64,000 nt of DNA from an uncultured Eggerthellaceae bacterium (GTDB lineage Bacteria > Actinomycetota > Coriobacteriia > Coriobacteriales > Eggerthellaceae): positions 1-64,000 of the forward strand of contig CAKTTY010000005.1 in NCBI GenBank assembly GCA_934617065.1. Reading direction: 5' to 3'. Below are positions 55,148 to 63,980 of the stretch, piece by piece. Position 1 is the first letter of the stretch. Each line of letters opens with the position of its first letter. Both the position numbers and the translations under genes were made by a program. The notes below the pieces were generated by a model, which was given only the letters and a program-made list of their open reading frames with translations, had not been told where the DNA came from and ran no database searches.

Positions 55148-56737
55148 CTATGCGTCGGCCTTAGCCGTTACCACGAACGTGGTAGATGCGGGCATGTTGC
55201 TGGCGTTGCCGCAGAAGGCACCTTGCTTTTCAGTGTAGTCACGCAGAGCGGAAACCAAGTCGAGCTTGCCGTTGATGCTGCCACGCATTTCCGAAATGGC
55301 GGTTTTCACACCTTCGCTCATGGCTTGCGTTCCCTGGTTGAGTTTGCTTGATGCCGCTGTGATCTTTTCGGTTGCCTCGCCTAGCTGCTGGTAGCCAGCT
55401 TGAATCTTGGTAAGTCCCTCACTGATGCTGGAAAGTCCTTGGGTTAGCTGGGCTGAGGCATCGCTTGCTTTGCTGAGGGCGGCGCTTGCGGAAGCGGTTG
55501 CCTGCTGGGCTGCGGCAAGGTTCGTCTTGGCGTCTGCGGTTGCCTGCTCCAATGCGGTAATCTGAGTTACGGTCATGCCTTCAGTGTCGATGGCCTCGAG
55601 TTCCGCAACGGCGGCTGCTGCCTTGTCTTGAGCTGCTTTGGCCTGCTCCAGCTGTTGGGAGGAAGTGCTGATAAGTTTGCCGATACCTTCAGATCCCCCA
55701 GAGAGTTTGCCTAGGCCATCGGTTGCATTGGGGAAGGCGCTGTTGAGCTTAGCCTGCCCTTCACTGATGCCAGAAAGGGCCTGGCTCACTCCTTGCATAC
55801 CTTGGCTCAGCTGCTCGGTTGCCTCCTGAATGGAAGATACCTGGCCAAACGCATCGTCCAGATTGGAATCAAGGCTGTCGGTGGTGCTTTCGTCAATCAT
55901 GCCCAGCGTTTGATTGGTTGCCATGGTGGTGATGTCGGGCATATCGAATCCGACAACATCGGCAGTGATGGTAACGCTTTCGGGGAGTTCCATCATATCG
56001 TCGAGTTCAAGCGATTTTGCAAGGCCGGGCATTGCCATGCCCATTGCGATGAACGAACCGTCCTGGTCCATTACCTTGCCGTTATCAACTTTTACATTAT
56101 TAGCGTGTTCGGCATCGAACGATACCAGCGATACCATGGCGTAGGGCTCCTTCGCCGTATGCGAAGTGCTGCCCGCATTCACTGTGACAGAAGTATTGTT
56201 CTGATATTCCAGGGAGATCTCAAGCTGGCCGGTCGCATTTTTTAGTGCAGAAGGGTCCACTGTTTTGCCGTTGAGCTTGCAAGAATAGGAAATGGAAAAG
56301 GGAAGTTCTTTGTCGGTGATGCCGGAGTAGTGTACATCTTTGCCGTTGGTGATCCAATCAAGTTTCGTACCATCTTGCGTGAAGGTGATCTTGTCGTCAT
56401 CGGTGGCAATTGCCTGTAGGCTCGATTCGTCTGAAATCACATCGAGTCCTTCGGGGTTCTTAAGCCATTCATCTACAGCAATGCTCTTGAACTCACCGGA
56501 AAGCGCGGTGGTTACCTTCACGGTTTCGGCCTTTTCATAAGCCGACCCATGGGCTGTTATGGAATCCCGTTGCTGCTCTTCGTTGGGTTGCTCTTGGGTA
56601 GCTGTTGCAGAGGCATCGTTTTCGTTGTTTTGCGAGTTGCTGCTACAGCCGGTGAGGAATCCGCAGCCGAACAATGCAAGACAGGAGAGAAGACAGCAGG
56701 TTGCAGCAAGGCGCTTTATTCGATGTATTGCAGTCAT
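55148..56737 (-). CDS. Coiled-coil lipoprotein of the YhgE/Pip-associated type
   Basis: The 529-residue protein has a signal peptide with lipobox LTGC (before SSNSQ). A beta-rich domain (about 60-290: EFKSIAVDEWLKNPEGLDV, GQLEISLEYQNN) is followed by a long helical repeat region rich in Gln, Ala, Ser and Gly (about 320-480), such as GMQGVSQALSGISEGQAKL, as in YhgE/Pip proteins. No C-terminal membrane helix is present, so it is the secreted partner of the membrane protein encoded just upstream. Its role is unknown; export or phage-infection-protein-like functions are known for the family. Confidence 0.75.
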   Translation of the reverse strand: MTAIHRIKRLAATCCLLSCLALFGCGFLTGCSSNSQNNENDASATATQEQPNEEQQRDSITAHGSAYEKAETVKVTTALSGEFKSIAVDEWLKNPEGLDVISDESSLQAIATDDDKITFTQDGTKLDWITNGKDVHYSGITDKELPFSISYSCKLNGKTVDPSALKNATGQLEISLEYQNNTSVTVNAGSTSHTAKEPYAMVSLVSFDAEHANNVKVDNGKVMDQDGSFIAMGMAMPGLAKSLELDDMMELPESVTITADVVGFDMPDITTMATNQTLGMIDESTTDSLDSNLDDAFGQVSSIQEATEQLSQGMQGVSQALSGISEGQAKLNSAFPNATDGLGKLSGGSEGIGKLISTSSQQLEQAKAAQDKAAAAVAELEAIDTEGMTVTQITALEQATADAKTNLAAAQQATASASAALSKASDASAQLTQGLSSISEGLTKIQAGYQQLGEATEKITAASSKLNQGTQAMSEGVKTAISEMRGSINGKLDLVSALRDYTEKQGAFCGNASNMPASTTFVVTAKADA

Positions 56738-56792
56738 AGTCGGTACCTTTCGGAATAATCAGTTCGTTCGATTAAGAGTTCGCCGCGGTGTG

Positions 56793-57926
56793 CTATTTGC
56801 CAGCTTCCCCCCGTTTCGTCAAAAGCGTCGCGACTATAAGAGCAAAGGCGCCTACGGTGCCGAAGCCCGCCAGAGGCAGAAGGTCGGCGCTGCTTGGCAT
56901 ATGTCCGAAGTAGGTGATGGTGCGCACGCCGTTGCCAATGTGCGCCTGCGGAGCCCAGGAGCATACCCAATCGCCCCAGAAAGAAGGAAGCATCTCGGGT
57001 GCCAGCATGGCGGTGCCCATACCTAGGGCGAAGGTTCCTACGGAAACCAATGCGCCCAAGGGGAAGCAGGCATCGCAGAGGGCAACGAAGCACAGCATGC
57101 AGCAGAAGCATGCGAACCAGATGAACAGATATATTTGTCCGGCAGGAAGGGAAAGCCCGCCTGCAACGGTGTCGATGAACAATGCCAAGCCTGCCATGAT
57201 GGCGGAAAGAACCAGAACGAATACTGCCTGTGCAGCGGCCGCAAGCTGCATATTCTTCTTGCGCGACCCTGTAGCATCTTTGTGCCAAAAAATCAGGGAA
57301 GTGACGATGGAGCCGATCATGCTAAGCATGAACAGCGGCATAACCAGCATCTGCACCGCCATGGTTTCTGACATCATGCCATTGCCGATATTGGCATCGT
57401 TTGCCATTTCGATGTTTACCGTAATGCCCTTTTTCAGCATGGCTGCGGTGAGGGTGGTCTGCATGGTCGTTGCCATTTGGGGGTTCTTGCCTTTGTTTAG
57501 GTATACGGTAAGCTCGGGCGCATTGCTCAGCCCCACGGCAGAACTCATCTGCTGGGAGGTGAAATTGGCGGGTATCACGATGCCGCCATAGTATTCATTG
57601 TTAGCAAGCGCTTCTTTGAGTTCCTCTTCACTGGAAAGCTGCGTCCAGCTTACGGCGTCGGAAAACGAGTTGCTTGGCGATTCGCCTTCATCGTCGCTGC
57701 CACCCAATGAGGTTTCGCCAGAAACCAGGTTATCGGCCATGGCTTTGCCGATGTTGCTGTCGCCAGCAATAGTTACGGCCCCTTTGTCTAGGTTAACGAT
57801 GGCGAAGGGCACGTTTTGCGGATTTGCGCGAAGCATGGGAGCAACTGCCAGACTTAAAATGCAGCACAGCACAATGCCAATGCCAACAGGCGCGATAATC
57901 GCTTTCTTGCCCAGTTTTTCGAACAT
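56793..57926 (-). CDS. YhgE/Pip or ABC-2-type membrane protein
   Basis: The 377-residue protein has an N-terminal helix (KKAIIAPVGIGIVLCCILSLAV), an outer segment with VPFAIVNLDKGAVTIAGD, the YhgE/Pip signature region, and then five or six helices in the C-terminal half. The fold matches ABC-2-type export subunits without an ATPase gene nearby. ATG 57926 follows AAGGAGGGCC. It is transcribed with the lipoprotein gene, and is divergent from the TetR gene with two operators between them. Confidence 0.82.
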   Translation of the reverse strand: MFEKLGKKAIIAPVGIGIVLCCILSLAVAPMLRANPQNVPFAIVNLDKGAVTIAGDSNIGKAMADNLVSGETSLGGSDDEGESPSNSFSDAVSWTQLSSEEELKEALANNEYYGGIVIPANFTSQQMSSAVGLSNAPELTVYLNKGKNPQMATTMQTTLTAAMLKKGITVNIEMANDANIGNGMMSETMAVQMLVMPLFMLSMIGSIVTSLIFWHKDATGSRKKNMQLAAAAQAVFVLVLSAIMAGLALFIDTVAGGLSLPAGQIYLFIWFACFCCMLCFVALCDACFPLGALVSVGTFALGMGTAMLAPEMLPSFWGDWVCSWAPQAHIGNGVRTITYFGHMPSSADLLPLAGFGTVGAFALIVATLLTKRGEAGK

Positions 57927-57969
57927 AGGCCCTCCTTGGGAACGTCGAAATCGGTACATTTCCATGCTA

Positions 57970-58618: not shown

Positions 58619-58750
58619 CAAGGGGCCAGGTAGTAATTGGCTCCAATGAGTTTTCCGCTTACGCTTTGATATGGACTTTGGACGGCTTTCGAGCAACGGA
58701 AAGGGCTTCGTGTGCTATTGCTTTGCTGGGGTTACAGTGAAAGGGGACGC

Positions 58751-59983
58751 ATGAAGTTTTCTGATAGCGTTGTTATGTTTGATTATGCCAAATTTCCGAT
58801 TCTCGGAAATTTGGCAACTGGGGCAGTGATCGGATTGGATTCTGCCGAAGAGCGTGTTTGCAGAGATGCGTTCGAGGCTGGGTCTAAGGAACTATCTACG
58901 GACGATTTTTCTCATGAGTTCTGTAGCGCTTTGAGCGAAGGGAAATTCTTTCGAGAAGAGCACGATGAAAATCTATCAAGATCAGCATATCTTCATGTGA
59001 CACAAAGATGCAATTTGAATTGCGTCGGGTGCTATTCCGTGAATTCGAAACGTAATGCTTCGCCCGATCTCCCTCTTGCGGATATCGAAGTCATTCTTAC
59101 GAAATTGAAGGGACTGAATGTCGATAGCCTGGTTATTTCAGGCGGGGAACCCTTTTTGCGGAAAGACTTGCCCGATATTGTTTCTTTTGCAAAGACGAAG
59201 GGTATAAGGAGCGTTTCCGTAATAACGAATGGAACTAGCATAAAGAGAGAGATCCTCCAAAGGTTGGCTGGTGCTGTGGATAGAATTGCTGTTTCGTTTG
59301 ATGGCTCTTCTGCTAGTTCCGAATCGTATATCCGTGGATATCAGCGGTTTGCTGATCTGAAAAAGAGCATCCTTGCGATTGAAGAAGAAGGGATAAACGC
59401 TCATATCATAGCGACGATTCACGCTTTTAATATTCAGGATATTCCTTCATATTTTGAGTTAGCTCGCTCTTTGAATGTTGGCATCAATTTTAGTTTGCTG
59501 TCATGTGCTGCTGATGATAAGCATTCGAAGAGGCTTATTCCCGACGATAATGCACTTGAGCGCTTGGCTGAAATCTTGATAGAGAACGCCGATCAAAATG
59601 CACTTTCTTGTGGCTTTAATTTGAACGGTTCTATTTCGGCAAGGGGTTGGTGCGGTGCCGGCCGAACCTGCTTAAGCGTATCCCATGAGGGGCTCCTGTA
59701 TCCCTGTCATATGTTGCAGTTTGATGGCTATACCATTGCGAACTTGTTGAAGGATAGCCTTGCGGACGTCGAAGAAAAAATTGATAATTCGCCCTTTTCG
59801 ACTCTGGACGTTGAATCAATTTCAGGATGCTCGAATTGCGGCATGAAGTATTTATGCGGCGGAGGCTGCCGTGCCCGTTCATTGTATGCCTATGGTGACG
59901 TCCGATCCTGTGACCCGTATTGTGCCTTAGCCAAAAAATTTTATGGTCTGCTTGGCGATTTGCTAAGAAGATCCTATGCGTAA
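58751..59983 (+). CDS. Radical SAM/SPASM peptide-maturase-like protein
   Basis: The 410-residue protein has an N-terminal region of about 75 residues that may be a RiPP recognition-like domain. The radical SAM core has CNLNCVGC (Cys87, 91, 94, the CxxxCxxC 4Fe-4S site), GGEPFLRKDL and SVSVITNGTS. The C-terminal SPASM domain has WCGAGRTC, YPCHMLQF, CSNCGMKYLCGGGC and CDPYC for two more clusters. SPASM enzymes include sactipeptide and ranthipeptide thioether synthases. I chose ATG 58751, behind AAGGGGA, over an earlier start. A Cys-containing 40-residue peptide follows, the likely substrate. Confidence 0.88.
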   Translation: MKFSDSVVMFDYAKFPILGNLATGAVIGLDSAEERVCRDAFEAGSKELSTDDFSHEFCSALSEGKFFREEHDENLSRSAYLHVTQRCNLNCVGCYSVNSKRNASPDLPLADIEVILTKLKGLNVDSLVISGGEPFLRKDLPDIVSFAKTKGIRSVSVITNGTSIKREILQRLAGAVDRIAVSFDGSSASSESYIRGYQRFADLKKSILAIEEEGINAHIIATIHAFNIQDIPSYFELARSLNVGINFSLLSCAADDKHSKRLIPDDNALERLAEILIENADQNALSCGFNLNGSISARGWCGAGRTCLSVSHEGLLYPCHMLQFDGYTIANLLKDSLADVEEKIDNSPFSTLDVESISGCSNCGMKYLCGGGCRARSLYAYGDVRSCDPYCALAKKFYGLLGDLLRRSYA

Positions 59984-60087: not shown

Positions 60088-60210
60088 ATGCTTTTTTATT
60101 CCATTCCAAATCAACAAGTTTCAAGTTGCTTGAATATAGGGCTTCCTAATGGCTGCGTGACCATTGGCCTTCAAAGTTTGCCTCTCAAAAAGCCGAAGTT
60201 GGATTGCTGA
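60088..60210 (+). CDS. Small Cys-containing peptide, candidate radical SAM RiPP precursor
   Basis: A 40-residue open frame too short for most gene finders, behind a good AAGGAGATAGA site. It has three Cys (14, 23, 40) and a duplicated motif: CLNIGL at residues 14-19 and CVTIGL at 23-28, separated by PNG. The tail is basic (KKPK). It starts 104 bp after the radical SAM gene and ends 19 bp before the DUF2975 gene. The repeated CxxIGL suggests two equal modification sites, such as thioether crosslinks. I recognise no known family; translation and modification are unproven. Confidence 0.6.
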   Translation: MLFYSIPNQQVSSCLNIGLPNGCVTIGLQSLPLKKPKLDC

Positions 60211-60229: not shown

Positions 60230-60775
60230 TTGTTTGGGGAATCAAACGAAGCAAGGGCTTCTTTACTTCGCCTGGAGAATATCGCAAAGCCATTGTATGT
60301 TGCCTTGCGAGTCGTTATGGCGACATTCATCATTGGATGGAGTTTGCTCTTTGCCGCATTTTTCGTTTCCTTGGTAACCTCAGAAGTTGGTTTGTATGAC
60401 TTGGTCTGTCATCTTCTTTACGCTGTTCCTGTTGCGGTGTCTGCTTTCATAAACATTTATATCCTTTACGTAATTGGAAGTATTTGCGATTCGATACGCC
60501 ATGGGAGCAGCCCGTTCACTATGCATACTTCTCGGCAAATTAAAGTAGTAAGTTTTTTGCTGCTTGCCAGTTTTGTCCTTCAGGCGGTTGTCTCTGTGAT
60601 TCCTTTTGATGGTTATTCTCTTGGCGTTATGCGAATTGGCTTGGCGAAGCAAGGGGATGGAGTGGTGGCGGATCTGAGCATTTCGACCTTGGTGGCTTCG
60701 GCTATTGGCTTTGTTCTGTCATATGTGTTTAAATACGGAGCATTGTTGCAGCGGTTGTCGGACGATACAGTTTAG
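60230..60775 (+). CDS. DUF2975-like membrane protein
   Basis: The 181-residue protein has four hydrophobic helices (about 22-45, 60-85, 105-125, 145-170), with RHGSSPFTMHTSRQIK between helices 2 and 3, the DUF2975 pattern. The start is TTG behind GGAAGGAAG, unusual in this window. It is followed after 9 bp by a small XRE-type regulator, the normal DUF2975 partner. It could serve immunity, sensing or regulation for the nearby peptide, or be unrelated. Confidence 0.72.
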   Translation: MFGESNEARASLLRLENIAKPLYVALRVVMATFIIGWSLLFAAFFVSLVTSEVGLYDLVCHLLYAVPVAVSAFINIYILYVIGSICDSIRHGSSPFTMHTSRQIKVVSFLLLASFVLQAVVSVIPFDGYSLGVMRIGLAKQGDGVVADLSISTLVASAIGFVLSYVFKYGALLQRLSDDTV

Positions 60776-60784
60776 GGGCATGTT

Positions 60785-61054
60785 TTGGCTATAGTGTTCA
60801 ACTTGGACAAATTGCTTGCCTCGAGAAAGATGCAATCCGTAGAGCTGGCAGAGAAGCTTGAATGCACAGTTCAGACGGTATCGAGGATAAAAAACGGGAA
60901 AATTCGTGCGTTAAGAATCGACAGTCTTGATAGGATTTGTGAGGTTTTCGATTGCCAACCTGGTGATTTACTTGAGTATCTTAGCGATGAAGAGGCTGAA
61001 AAAAGATACGGTGAGACCTTTTTGGAGGAGTATAAAAAATATCATAGTCAATAG
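60785..61054 (+). CDS. Small XRE-type (YozG-like) transcriptional regulator
   Basis: The 89-residue protein is nearly all a Cro/CI helix-turn-helix: LASRKMQSVELAEKLECTVQTVSRIKNGKIR and SLDRICEVFDCQPGDLLEY, shown as two blocks. A short charged tail follows. A TTG start. It pairs with the DUF2975 membrane protein in a known two-gene arrangement. It could control the peptide genes on either side. A strong terminator follows. Confidence 0.88.
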   Translation: MAIVFNLDKLLASRKMQSVELAEKLECTVQTVSRIKNGKIRALRIDSLDRICEVFDCQPGDLLEYLSDEEAEKRYGETFLEEYKKYHSQ

Positions 61055-61244: not shown

Positions 61245-63818
61245 ATGAGGCATGGTTACCAAAACTTAACCAATTACAGAATGCTTCATATTGCCAAGGA
61301 TTCGCCATTTTTCGAAGAGTATGCTCAGGCGAAAAATACAGAGTCTTTTTCTTGCGAAGTCCCTTCGGATTGGGCGTGTCAGTTTGATTCAACCTGGAGG
61401 TATTTATTTCCCGCAAAGGTGAACTTGCCTGATCAGGGATGGAAGATCCACCTAAGCTCATGTCCCACGGAAGCTCAATTGCTGCTCGATATTGTAGGTG
61501 GCTTTTTAGTCAAGAAGAGAGTTGCTTTCAAGCATTTGGCATCGTATGGGAGCTTTCTGAGACTGAACGGTAAGAATGCAAATAGGTCCTCTTCGGGCAA
61601 ATTTATAACAATCTATCCAGGGTCAGTTGGTGACTTCCTTGCTCTTTTGGAAGAGCTAGAAGGTCTTTTGGGAAATTTCCATGGTCCCTATGTGCTGTCT
61701 GACATCAGGTACAAGGAAGCTCCGGTTTTCTTCCGCTACGGTGGTTTTCGATATCTTTTGGAAGAAGATGGAAAGGGTGTCTCCAGGCTGGCAATACGAA
61801 GACCGGATGGCTCTCTGACTGAAGATCAGAGAAAGCCATTCTTCGTCTTGCCTGATTTTGTTTCCGTCCCCTTTGGCATAAAGAAACAGGTCGATGCCCG
61901 TATCAACCCATCAGATGAATTTGAGCTTCTTTTTGCTCCTTATTCAATTTTGGAAAGCCTGCATTTCAGCAATGCGGGTGGGGTTTATCGTGGGGTTAAT
62001 CTCAAGACTGGTTGCGAGATTGTGGTCAAAGAGGCTCGGTCGTATGCTGGCTATTCTTCTCCCGATTGCGATGCGGTGCGACGTTTAAGGCATGAGCGGT
62101 CGATGCTCATCAGACTGCAGGGAATTGAGGGGATTCCCTCTTACTACTCGTATAAGACAGTTTGCGGACACGAATTCCTGGTCGAGGAATATTGTGCCGG
62201 GGTCACTTTGCAGTCTTGGGTTGCCAGTAATTACCCTTTTCGTCTTGGAGAGGACGATGCTCTTCGCTATTCCGAGAGAGCCTTGGTAATTGCTCGACAA
62301 ATGTTGGGCCTCTTGGACGCAGTTCATAGCGCGGGCGTTGCCTTGATGGATGTTAATCCAAAAAACTTTATCGTTGATAAAAATCTTGCAGTAAGCCTTA
62401 TCGATTTTGAGGCATGTAGCGATATCGATGGGGCTGATTCGGCGAGCTTGGGGATGCCTGGTTTTTCTCCGCTCTGCAAATGCGCCAATAAAGAGAGGGA
62501 CGAATTCGGCTTGGCATGTGTTTTGTCCTATCTCTTTTGGCCTTCTTGGAGTAGCTCTTTCTCTCCACGCTCTCTTTATGAGCGGCTTCCTCTCATAGAT
62601 AAGCATTTTCCATCTTCAGTTAAGGACATGCTCGAAGAGCAATTGTCTTGTATGACTTCCCGTGTATTTGATTCCCCGTTTGGCTTGGTGCCGGTTGGGA
62701 GTGAAAAAATCGATTCGTGTAGCTTTGCACAGCGTTTGGCTGCAGGAATCGCAAAATCGAGAAGACCCGATGATTCGGAGGGCCGTCTCTATCCTGGTGA
62801 TGCTACGCAATTCTTGCATGGGCCTTTAGGTCGATTAGACATAGAGACTGGCGCTGCGGGCGTTGCTCTCATGCTTGGTCGTTTTGGGCTTGATGTTTCC
62901 TCTGATGTTGAATGGATTACGACGAAGCTTTTGAAAAGCGAAATCTCTTTGCATTTTCATGGACTGCTTCGTGGAACAGTGGGAATAGCAAGCGTTTTTT
63001 CGCAGCTTGGATATTGTGAAAAGGCAATAGGTCTGCTTCCTCTTTCTTTACCGCATGGTCCCTCTGATGATATTTCGATAAGAAGCGGAATTGCCGGAAC
63101 GGTTCTTTCTCTCTTGCAAATCAATTCAGATTGCGGCTGTCCCCAGGTGAGAAAACTCCTTGGAGAATCTGCTGATTTTTTGCGAGATTCCGTATTGAAG
63201 AATCTCGAACCAGTAAGTGATGGCGCGGAAACCGGGAATGCTGTTGGACTGTTCGATGGCTGGTCTGGTGCGGCGTTGGCTTGCCATGAGTTGGCTGCAT
63301 GCTTTGTCGAGCAATCGGCTGAGTGGAATCGCTTGGCTAACGTTTGCCTCGAACGCGAACTTTCGGGACTCGATGTAAAACCTGATGGCTCTTTGTCAGT
63401 TGATTATTCGGGAATTGATTTCGGGTACTTATCTGAGGGCATTGCGGGTATTGGGGTTTCACTTGCCTTATGCAATGGGGATGGATATGCAAATGAGCTT
63501 AAAACTATTTCTTCTTCGCTCAAAGAATACGTTGCCCTGAACGGTGGCTTGTTCCATGGACTATTAGGCAAAGCAGCGGCACTTCTCTGCATTGATGGGG
63601 AGGAAAACGCTGATGTTATTTCAGCAATGGCGAGGAACGTGATAGGGGAGTTTTGCTTTCGGGAGCAAAGCCAAGATTTCGAGGGGCCAATTTGGGCCTT
63701 GGGAAATGGTGGTTCTTGCTTATCGGTTGATTATTCAACTGGTTCCGCTGGGCTGATTGGATTTCTCCTGTCTTCGGTCGAGCATCCTTTTGGATGGTTT
63801 CCCGTTTCTCTTCATTGA
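61245..63818 (+). CDS. lanKC: Class III lanthipeptide synthetase (LanKC)
   Basis: The 857-residue three-domain protein makes labionin/lanthionine rings. The N-terminal lyase part (about 1-230) shows GWKIHLSS, FKHLASYGSF and GKFITIYPG. The kinase (about 235-500) has GGVYRG (245-250), Lys262 in VVKEAR, catalytic Asp369 and Asn374 in LMDVNPKNF, and DFE (387-389) in place of DFG. The C-terminal LanC-like domain (about 520-857) has FHGLLGK where zinc cyclases have CHG and no WCYG, so zinc ligands are absent, which points to class III rather than IV. GGGAGG precedes the ATG. A SapB-like precursor gene follows. Confidence 0.92.
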   Translation: MRHGYQNLTNYRMLHIAKDSPFFEEYAQAKNTESFSCEVPSDWACQFDSTWRYLFPAKVNLPDQGWKIHLSSCPTEAQLLLDIVGGFLVKKRVAFKHLASYGSFLRLNGKNANRSSSGKFITIYPGSVGDFLALLEELEGLLGNFHGPYVLSDIRYKEAPVFFRYGGFRYLLEEDGKGVSRLAIRRPDGSLTEDQRKPFFVLPDFVSVPFGIKKQVDARINPSDEFELLFAPYSILESLHFSNAGGVYRGVNLKTGCEIVVKEARSYAGYSSPDCDAVRRLRHERSMLIRLQGIEGIPSYYSYKTVCGHEFLVEEYCAGVTLQSWVASNYPFRLGEDDALRYSERALVIARQMLGLLDAVHSAGVALMDVNPKNFIVDKNLAVSLIDFEACSDIDGADSASLGMPGFSPLCKCANKERDEFGLACVLSYLFWPSWSSSFSPRSLYERLPLIDKHFPSSVKDMLEEQLSCMTSRVFDSPFGLVPVGSEKIDSCSFAQRLAAGIAKSRRPDDSEGRLYPGDATQFLHGPLGRLDIETGAAGVALMLGRFGLDVSSDVEWITTKLLKSEISLHFHGLLRGTVGIASVFSQLGYCEKAIGLLPLSLPHGPSDDISIRSGIAGTVLSLLQINSDCGCPQVRKLLGESADFLRDSVLKNLEPVSDGAETGNAVGLFDGWSGAALACHELAACFVEQSAEWNRLANVCLERELSGLDVKPDGSLSVDYSGIDFGYLSEGIAGIGVSLALCNGDGYANELKTISSSLKEYVALNGGLFHGLLGKAAALLCIDGEENADVISAMARNVIGEFCFREQSQDFEGPIWALGNGGSCLSVDYSTGSAGLIGFLLSSVEHPFGWFPVSLH

Positions 63819-63857
63819 TATAAACATGCGCACAAATCAAGGAAGGAGGTGAAGGAA

Positions 63858-63980
63858 ATGGGTTCTATGTTGGATCTTCAGTCGCTCGAAGCCTCTAGCG
63901 ATGCGATCGATCCTAGGGCATCTGGAGCTAGCTTTATGTGCAATGGCGATAACAGCTCTGTGAGCCTTTGGTGCGGCTAA
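63858..63980 (+). CDS. lanA: Class III lanthipeptide precursor, SapB-like
   Basis: A 40-residue peptide behind a strong GGAAGGAGG site, 39 bp after lanKC. The leader carries MLDLQSLE (residues 4-11), the LxLQ-type motif that LanKC enzymes bind. The core has two SxxSxxC labionin motifs: SGASFMC (residues 22-28) and SSVSLWC (33-39), separated by NGDN, and ends in Gly. The spacing and the CNGDNSSVSLWC block recall SapB/AmfS. The mature product would hold two labionin or lanthionine-type rings. The short sequence is too small for default gene finders. The rest of the locus lies beyond the window. Confidence 0.88.
   Translation: MGSMLDLQSLEASSDAIDPRASGASFMCNGDNSSVSLWCG

Follow-up and report, generated by a model that had tools for sequence, protein, structure and literature searches.

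The closest described systems to the gene pair considered here are those of SapB (RamS/RamC) and AmfS in Streptomyces, and of ThurKC/ThurA in Bacillus thuringiensis (PDB 8sap). SapB and AmfS come from filamentous hosts and combine a leader motif and two consecutive rings with a LanKC-type synthetase. Their ring motifs are spaced Sx2Sx3C (PMC13380574, PMC7268733), an arrangement that leads in some peptides to a labionin and in others to a lanthionine formed by the first Ser (PMC7268733). The leader motif of class III precursors is LxLQ, and 55% of such precursors are unannotated, so they are easily missed in annotation (PMC7268733). For ThurKC, a ThurA product with 11 dehydrations has been described, and D771, R519 and D657 of the synthetase are required for labionin (PMC10604976). 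In the available text of PMC4289311, Eggerthella lenta is mentioned only for NHLP clusters, and that of PMC9903846 reports no class III cluster in Coriobacteriia. A literature search on class III lanthipeptides and LanKC in Eggerthella, Eggerthellaceae, Coriobacteriia and the human microbiome found no paper on the present system among open-licence papers, which is a weak form of absence.

The window, meaning the whole 64-kb stretch of DNA that was analysed, ends with two forward-strand genes, lanKC (61245–63818) and lanA (63858–63980), that very likely form a class III lanthipeptide biosynthetic cluster. The 40-residue candidate precursor encoded by lanA runs from an ATG to a stop codon, which is included in the coordinates, and 39 bases separate it from the end of lanKC directly upstream. 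A strong ribosome binding site (AAGGAGGTGA, 63843–63852) lies five bases 5’ of the ATG; an alternative GTG start is possible three codons upstream, at 63849. The putative leader (residues 1–21, 63858–63920) contains MLDLQ, and the core that follows has two ring motifs, each exactly SxxSxxC: SGASFMC (S22-x2-S25-x2-C28, 63921–63941) and SSVSLWC (S33-x2-S36-x2-C39, 63954–63974). An LxLQ leader joined to a Ser/Cys core is what is expected of a class III precursor. The frame, its ribosome binding site, MLDLQ, the two ring motifs and the LanKC gene upstream had been described in the first-pass annotation of this DNA, and the sequence bears them out. The same annotation had looked for a product with four dehydrations, which is not the upper limit, because the core has five Ser, with S34 sitting within the second motif.

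A census was made of all frames of 20–120 aa with ATG, GTG or TTG starts on both strands of the window (848 frames). lanA alone has two SxxSxxC motifs. LxLQ is present in 18 frames and at least one SxxSxxC in 19, while the two occur together in lanA and in one other frame, at about 47146. Three precursor models match lanA (RamS, lanthi_III_b and SapB_AmfS), all under their curated cut-offs, and near-identical peptides are present, without a name, in the public protein set (P0125 and others).

The 857-aa LanKC consists of lyase, kinase and LanC-like cyclase regions. It passes the class III model NF038151 (611 bits, cut-off 575) and fails the class IV LanL model (321.5 bits, cut-off 650). RamC_N and Pkinase match above cut-off, and Pfam LANC_like taken alone is just under it (21.7 bits, cut-off 23.2); PADLOC matches fall mostly within the kinase region. 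Residues 37–854 align to the ThurKC structure 8sap (E 4.9e-96), and the two proteins share the whole synthetase architecture and most catalytic residues, though ThurKC (P0081) is only 30% identical. With residues numbered as in the ThurKC paper (PMC10604976), all eight lyase residues are identical (K65, H67, K94, K108, K117, D152, R163 and R191), as are Arg275 and Glu384 of the DFE motif, and the cyclase residues S608, R610, D667, S726 and F770 are kept. Not common to both are D771, R519 and D657, which are H, T and A in the window protein, and Trp302 of the leader pocket, which is Cys. Because the nearest eight LanKC relatives aligned also deviate from ThurKC at these four positions, the deviation may concern ring type; it does not separate lanthionine from labionin. 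The LanC zinc-ligand positions are Ser730, Phe770 and His771, so that two of the three ligands are missing. The class III score, the 8sap match and the motif census uphold the original proposal of a class III lanthipeptide precursor beside its LanKC.

Relatives of LanKC were examined at the best 80 of 580 confirmed loci. In a tree of 60 rows (quick method, midpoint root, RamC and AmfT themselves absent), the window LanKC groups with P0001–P0003 and then P0004, inside a group of 15 rows (P0001–P0013, P0015 and the window). This group adjoins Plantibacter, Microbacterium azadirachtae, P0014, P0016 and P0017, and six Streptomycetaceae rows lie apart from the window protein. Candidate precursors were found by motif beside 62 of these best 80 of 580 loci, with one best candidate counted per locus. 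Among the candidates, two Sx2Sx2C motifs without Sx2Sx3C occur only in Microbacterium, and the Plantibacter core is nearly the same as that of Microbacterium. The Trp in the second ring motif, singled out in the first-pass annotation, is unremarkable, since WLWC, MWC and IWC are seen in further candidates from actinobacteria.

The Microbacterium azadirachtae (L025) and Plantibacter sp. (L024) loci encode LanKC proteins 39–40% identical to that of the window and, like the window, have one candidate precursor directly downstream. Their cores (GSGISIWCDGNNSGISISCG and GSGISMWCDGDNRGISISCG) each share 10 of 20 residues with the window core (ASGASFMCNGDNSSVSLWCG); with the six S/S/C positions set aside, the agreement is 5 of 14 for Plantibacter (shuffle p 0.007) and 4 of 14 for Microbacterium (shuffle p 0.04). 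In the Plantibacter core, but not in that of the window, ring 2 is without its first Ser. In both loci the precursor is followed by an ABC ATPase, a permease and an ABC exporter, and the upstream genes resemble, by eye, a two-component system, where the window has an HTH gene instead. By these sequence comparisons the nearest named kin of the window pair, among the best 80 of 580 loci, are Microbacteriaceae. That family is not known to be filamentous in the manner of Streptomyces, so a class III lanthipeptide gene in a non-filamentous host is not strange in itself.

The first-pass annotation took the host to be a gut-type actinobacterium, and the host group fits. The window MurD matches a cluster of 2831 members at 97% identity, and its farther named matches include a Coriobacteriia bacterium (68%), Raoultibacter (60–64%) and an Eggerthellaceae bacterium (61–62%). 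The organism is accordingly placed in the Eggerthellaceae or a family close to it, and the ‘gut’ habitat is read from this taxonomic group. The LanKC cluster P0001, 98% identical to the window LanKC, has 3242 member sequences. Because this is about as large as the MurD cluster, lanKC seems to be usual within its own species.

Outside that species such genes are rare. RamC_N was found in none of the 138 family genomes examined (92 of them well complete) and in one of 396 class genomes (a sample). That one, G226, was also the only match to a LanKC profile among 395 order genomes, through a shorter, different protein; no full-length LanKC was found with the profile in these 395, 264 of which have a completeness of 90% or more and a contamination of 5% or less. 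The family, class and order sets overlap, and a LanKC remnant in G001, described below, is too short for these searches to find. A first contig scan with a single protein as query gave no match. The G226 protein (same order, other family) was rejected as a LanKC: it has 417 aa, with RamC_N and kinase regions and no LanC-like match. At its locus (L104, 7685–12622) a prolyl-oligopeptidase-like gene, ABC transporter genes and an 85-aa frame weakly similar to the NHLP type lie nearby, and the whole may be an unusual class III-like system of that order. Other LanKC matches in relatives, the G001 remnant excepted, cover fewer than 200 residues in or near the kinase region and were taken as ordinary kinases.

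A protein search with the lanA peptide returned 16 related clusters with 204 member sequences. One of these, P0122, is identical to lanA at 40 of 40 residues. The contigs of P0122 and of the LanKC P0002 agree in length (2920) and in source, and the N-terminal extension of P0122 can be encoded in a frame overlapping the C-terminus of P0002 by 37 bases. The extension fits this one of the eight LanKC ends tried; the other seven, including that of the window, do not fit. P0122 very probably lies beside P0002. A second extended precursor, P0124, had no fit among the eight ends. P0002 and the window LanKC are 78% identical (671/857), and if the pairing is right, the chance of a 40-aa peptide staying unchanged at the LanKC rate of divergence is 5.6e-5. 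Because an identical peptide very probably adjoins a LanKC of only 78% identity, the lanA peptide seems to be translated and constrained, the P0122–P0002 pair being the strongest sign of this, if correctly paired.

A frameshift in close relatives had been named at the outset as a result that would speak against the gene, and this occurs in part. Both exact SxxSxxC motifs are kept in 144 of the 204 members (among them P0123, which has no stop codon), but 53 have a frameshift in or before the core, 42 of these in cluster P0133, and seven have one motif broken by substitution or in-frame deletion; these are database counts rather than independent strains, and the frameshifts were read from peptides, so some may be sequencing errors. 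P0133, P0131 and P0132 are recurring variants whose reading frame appears to shift behind the first ring motif; the most frequent of them has 42 members. Given the 53 frameshifted members and the seven others with a broken motif, the product may be missing from many strains.

Upstream of lanKC, on the same strand, lie genes for a radical SAM/SPASM protein (58712–59983, Radical_SAM and SPASM over cut-off), a 181-aa protein that is hydrophobic by eye (60230–60775, no family match in profile searches) and, beside it, a small Cro/C1-type HTH protein, a possible regulator (60785–61054, HTH_26 at 72.3 bits, over cut-off). Four genomes of the genus were examined (G001–G004, 1.5–1.6 Mb, one 99% complete and the others 63–81%). 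The one closest to the window, G001, has 31% of sampled 31-letter words in common with it, and the 181-aa and HTH proteins of G001 are 77% and 95.5% identical to those of the window. The G001 DNA matches the window up to 58678 and again from 59891, ending at 61378; it lacks the radical SAM gene except for the 3’ end, LanKC from about codon 46 on, and the whole precursor. The G001 assembly is 80% complete and has other split genes nearby, and the deletions lie inside one 110-kb contig. In G001, each of the two membrane-protein genes that correspond to window 55148–57965 is broken into two frames (L021, 8931–11745), which means decay or assembly errors there too.

Past the deletion, G001 has the reading MPGNCGKGVILRCRP directly before an ABC ATPase gene (about 245 aa, start uncertain). 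The ATPase and the following 438-aa permease (FtsX match under cut-off) are open, and are followed by a 126-aa fragment that resembles part of an ABC membrane domain (match under cut-off), then by RNase P RNA, a thiamine pyrophosphokinase (TPK) gene, a TPP riboswitch and a thiC-like gene. A conserved element of ca. 330 bases before the TPK gene is the RNase P RNA, which in G001 (L021 16543–16880) marks the distal edge of the island. In G002 and G004 a DivIVA-like gene, the RNase P element and TPK follow one another, and no frame there resembles an island gene; G003 has the TetR gene and the two membrane genes, with nothing like the RiPP genes. Because the island is absent from G002–G004, its gain, or its sole retention, is placed in the lineage that the window and G001 share, with partial loss in G001.

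The first-pass annotation had pointed to the DNA just past 64000 as a place for transporter and further precursor genes. Transporters are probably there: a reading like MPGNCGKGVILRCRP follows the precursor in read-through variants (MPGNCRKGVILRCQP in P0123), as it precedes the ATPase in G001. A second precursor between lanA and the ATPase was rejected, because P0123 and P0130 run into the reading that stands directly before the ATPase start in G001. Shared descent of these transporters with those of Microbacterium was not supported either. The G001 ATPase is 38% identical to that of Microbacterium versus 47–52% at six places in the family or order (L107–L111 and L114; L112 is at 38%). The permeases (642 aa, against 438 aa in G001) gave no match at E 0.01, and the exporter fragment is 22% identical to the Microbacterium exporter over 116 residues (E 0.46). 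A promoter scan was uninformative, with one site, on the other strand, versus 6.8 expected.

Directly behind the radical SAM gene lies a frame (60088–60210) for 40 aa, three of them Cys, that has a good ribosome binding site; the two possibly form a second RiPP pair. The frame is disrupted by single-base indels in G001. Relatives of the radical SAM protein (36–44% identity) are present in 37 of the 138 family genomes, and no peptide like that of 60088–60210 was found beside six of them. The island radical SAM protein may be a separate system or a tailoring enzyme.

The likeness to SapB that was first proposed for lanA holds loosely, in the leader motif, the two rings and the type of LanKC, but not in the strict sense. 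A true morphogenetic surfactant of the SapB/AmfS family, if it had passed into a non-filamentous host to serve surface or biofilm behaviour there, would account for the LDLQ leader, the two-ring core and a RamS score only 1.1 bits short of its cut-off (23.2 against 24.3). Yet both lanA motifs are Sx2Sx2C rather than Sx2Sx3C, lanA reaches 17.7 of the 25 bits that the SapB_AmfS model (NF033212) requires, and LanKC stands apart from the Streptomycetaceae synthetases in a tree without RamC and AmfT. The host group is not known to be filamentous or mycelial. This origin is improbable, and ‘SapB’ should be dropped from the name of the system.

A relic, in which LanKC and precursor are intact in the window genome and no longer under selection, is also unlikely. 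The loss of LanKC, precursor and radical SAM gene from G001 and the share of frameshifted precursors would fit such a history, but the 857 codons of LanKC are open with catalytic residues kept, the precursor is unchanged across the 22% divergence between the window LanKC and P0002, most database members retain both exact motifs, and the LanKC and MurD clusters are of similar size in the database. Least probable is a hybrid peptide, with the radical SAM enzyme also acting on the LanKC product. The two genes are on the same strand, 1.3 kb apart, and both are lost in G001. However, since relatives of the radical SAM gene occur in 37 of 138 family genomes and RamC_N in none, such genes exist without LanKC, and the three-Cys frame at 60088–60210 is a possible substrate of its own. 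The lanKC–lanA pair is probably real and working as a class III lanthipeptide system.

In such a system, LanKC would bind the LDLQ leader of the 40-aa precursor, phosphorylate core Ser residues and then eliminate the phosphate to give dehydroalanine, as in known LanKC chemistry. The metal-independent cyclase domain would join Cys28 and Cys39 to dehydrated Ser, with two small lanthionine or labionin rings, S22/S25–C28 and S33/S36–C39, as the predicted outcome; labionin tolerates two to five residues between the second Ser and the Cys. The leader would be removed by a protease. No protease gene was seen at the lanKC–lanA locus, and actinobacterial class III clusters are usually without one (PMC7268733). 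ABC transporters encoded just past 64000 would export the product and/or protect the producer.

For a secreted product from a decaying island, competition or signalling is tentatively suggested as a likelier role than morphogenesis, at somewhat less than even confidence, because G001 lost synthetase and peptide and kept ATPase and permease open, and because frameshifted alleles are common. More speculative is interference between closely related gut Eggerthellaceae-like bacteria, in which the ATPase–permease pair would be a self-protection kept after loss of the weapon. In G001 this transporter pair did outlast the synthetase, the peptide and, it seems, the larger part of the exporter. An immunity function of the pair would predict this; that young remnants were kept by chance is an equally simple explanation.

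With this locus, a complete class III lanthipeptide gene pair is recorded for an order where such pairs are almost absent; the type of molecule is known, and its place in the tree is new. If the interference reading is true, producers, frameshifted non-producers and an immunity-only sister lineage would coexist. The intact, frameshifted and transporter-only states together allow an ordinary test of function.
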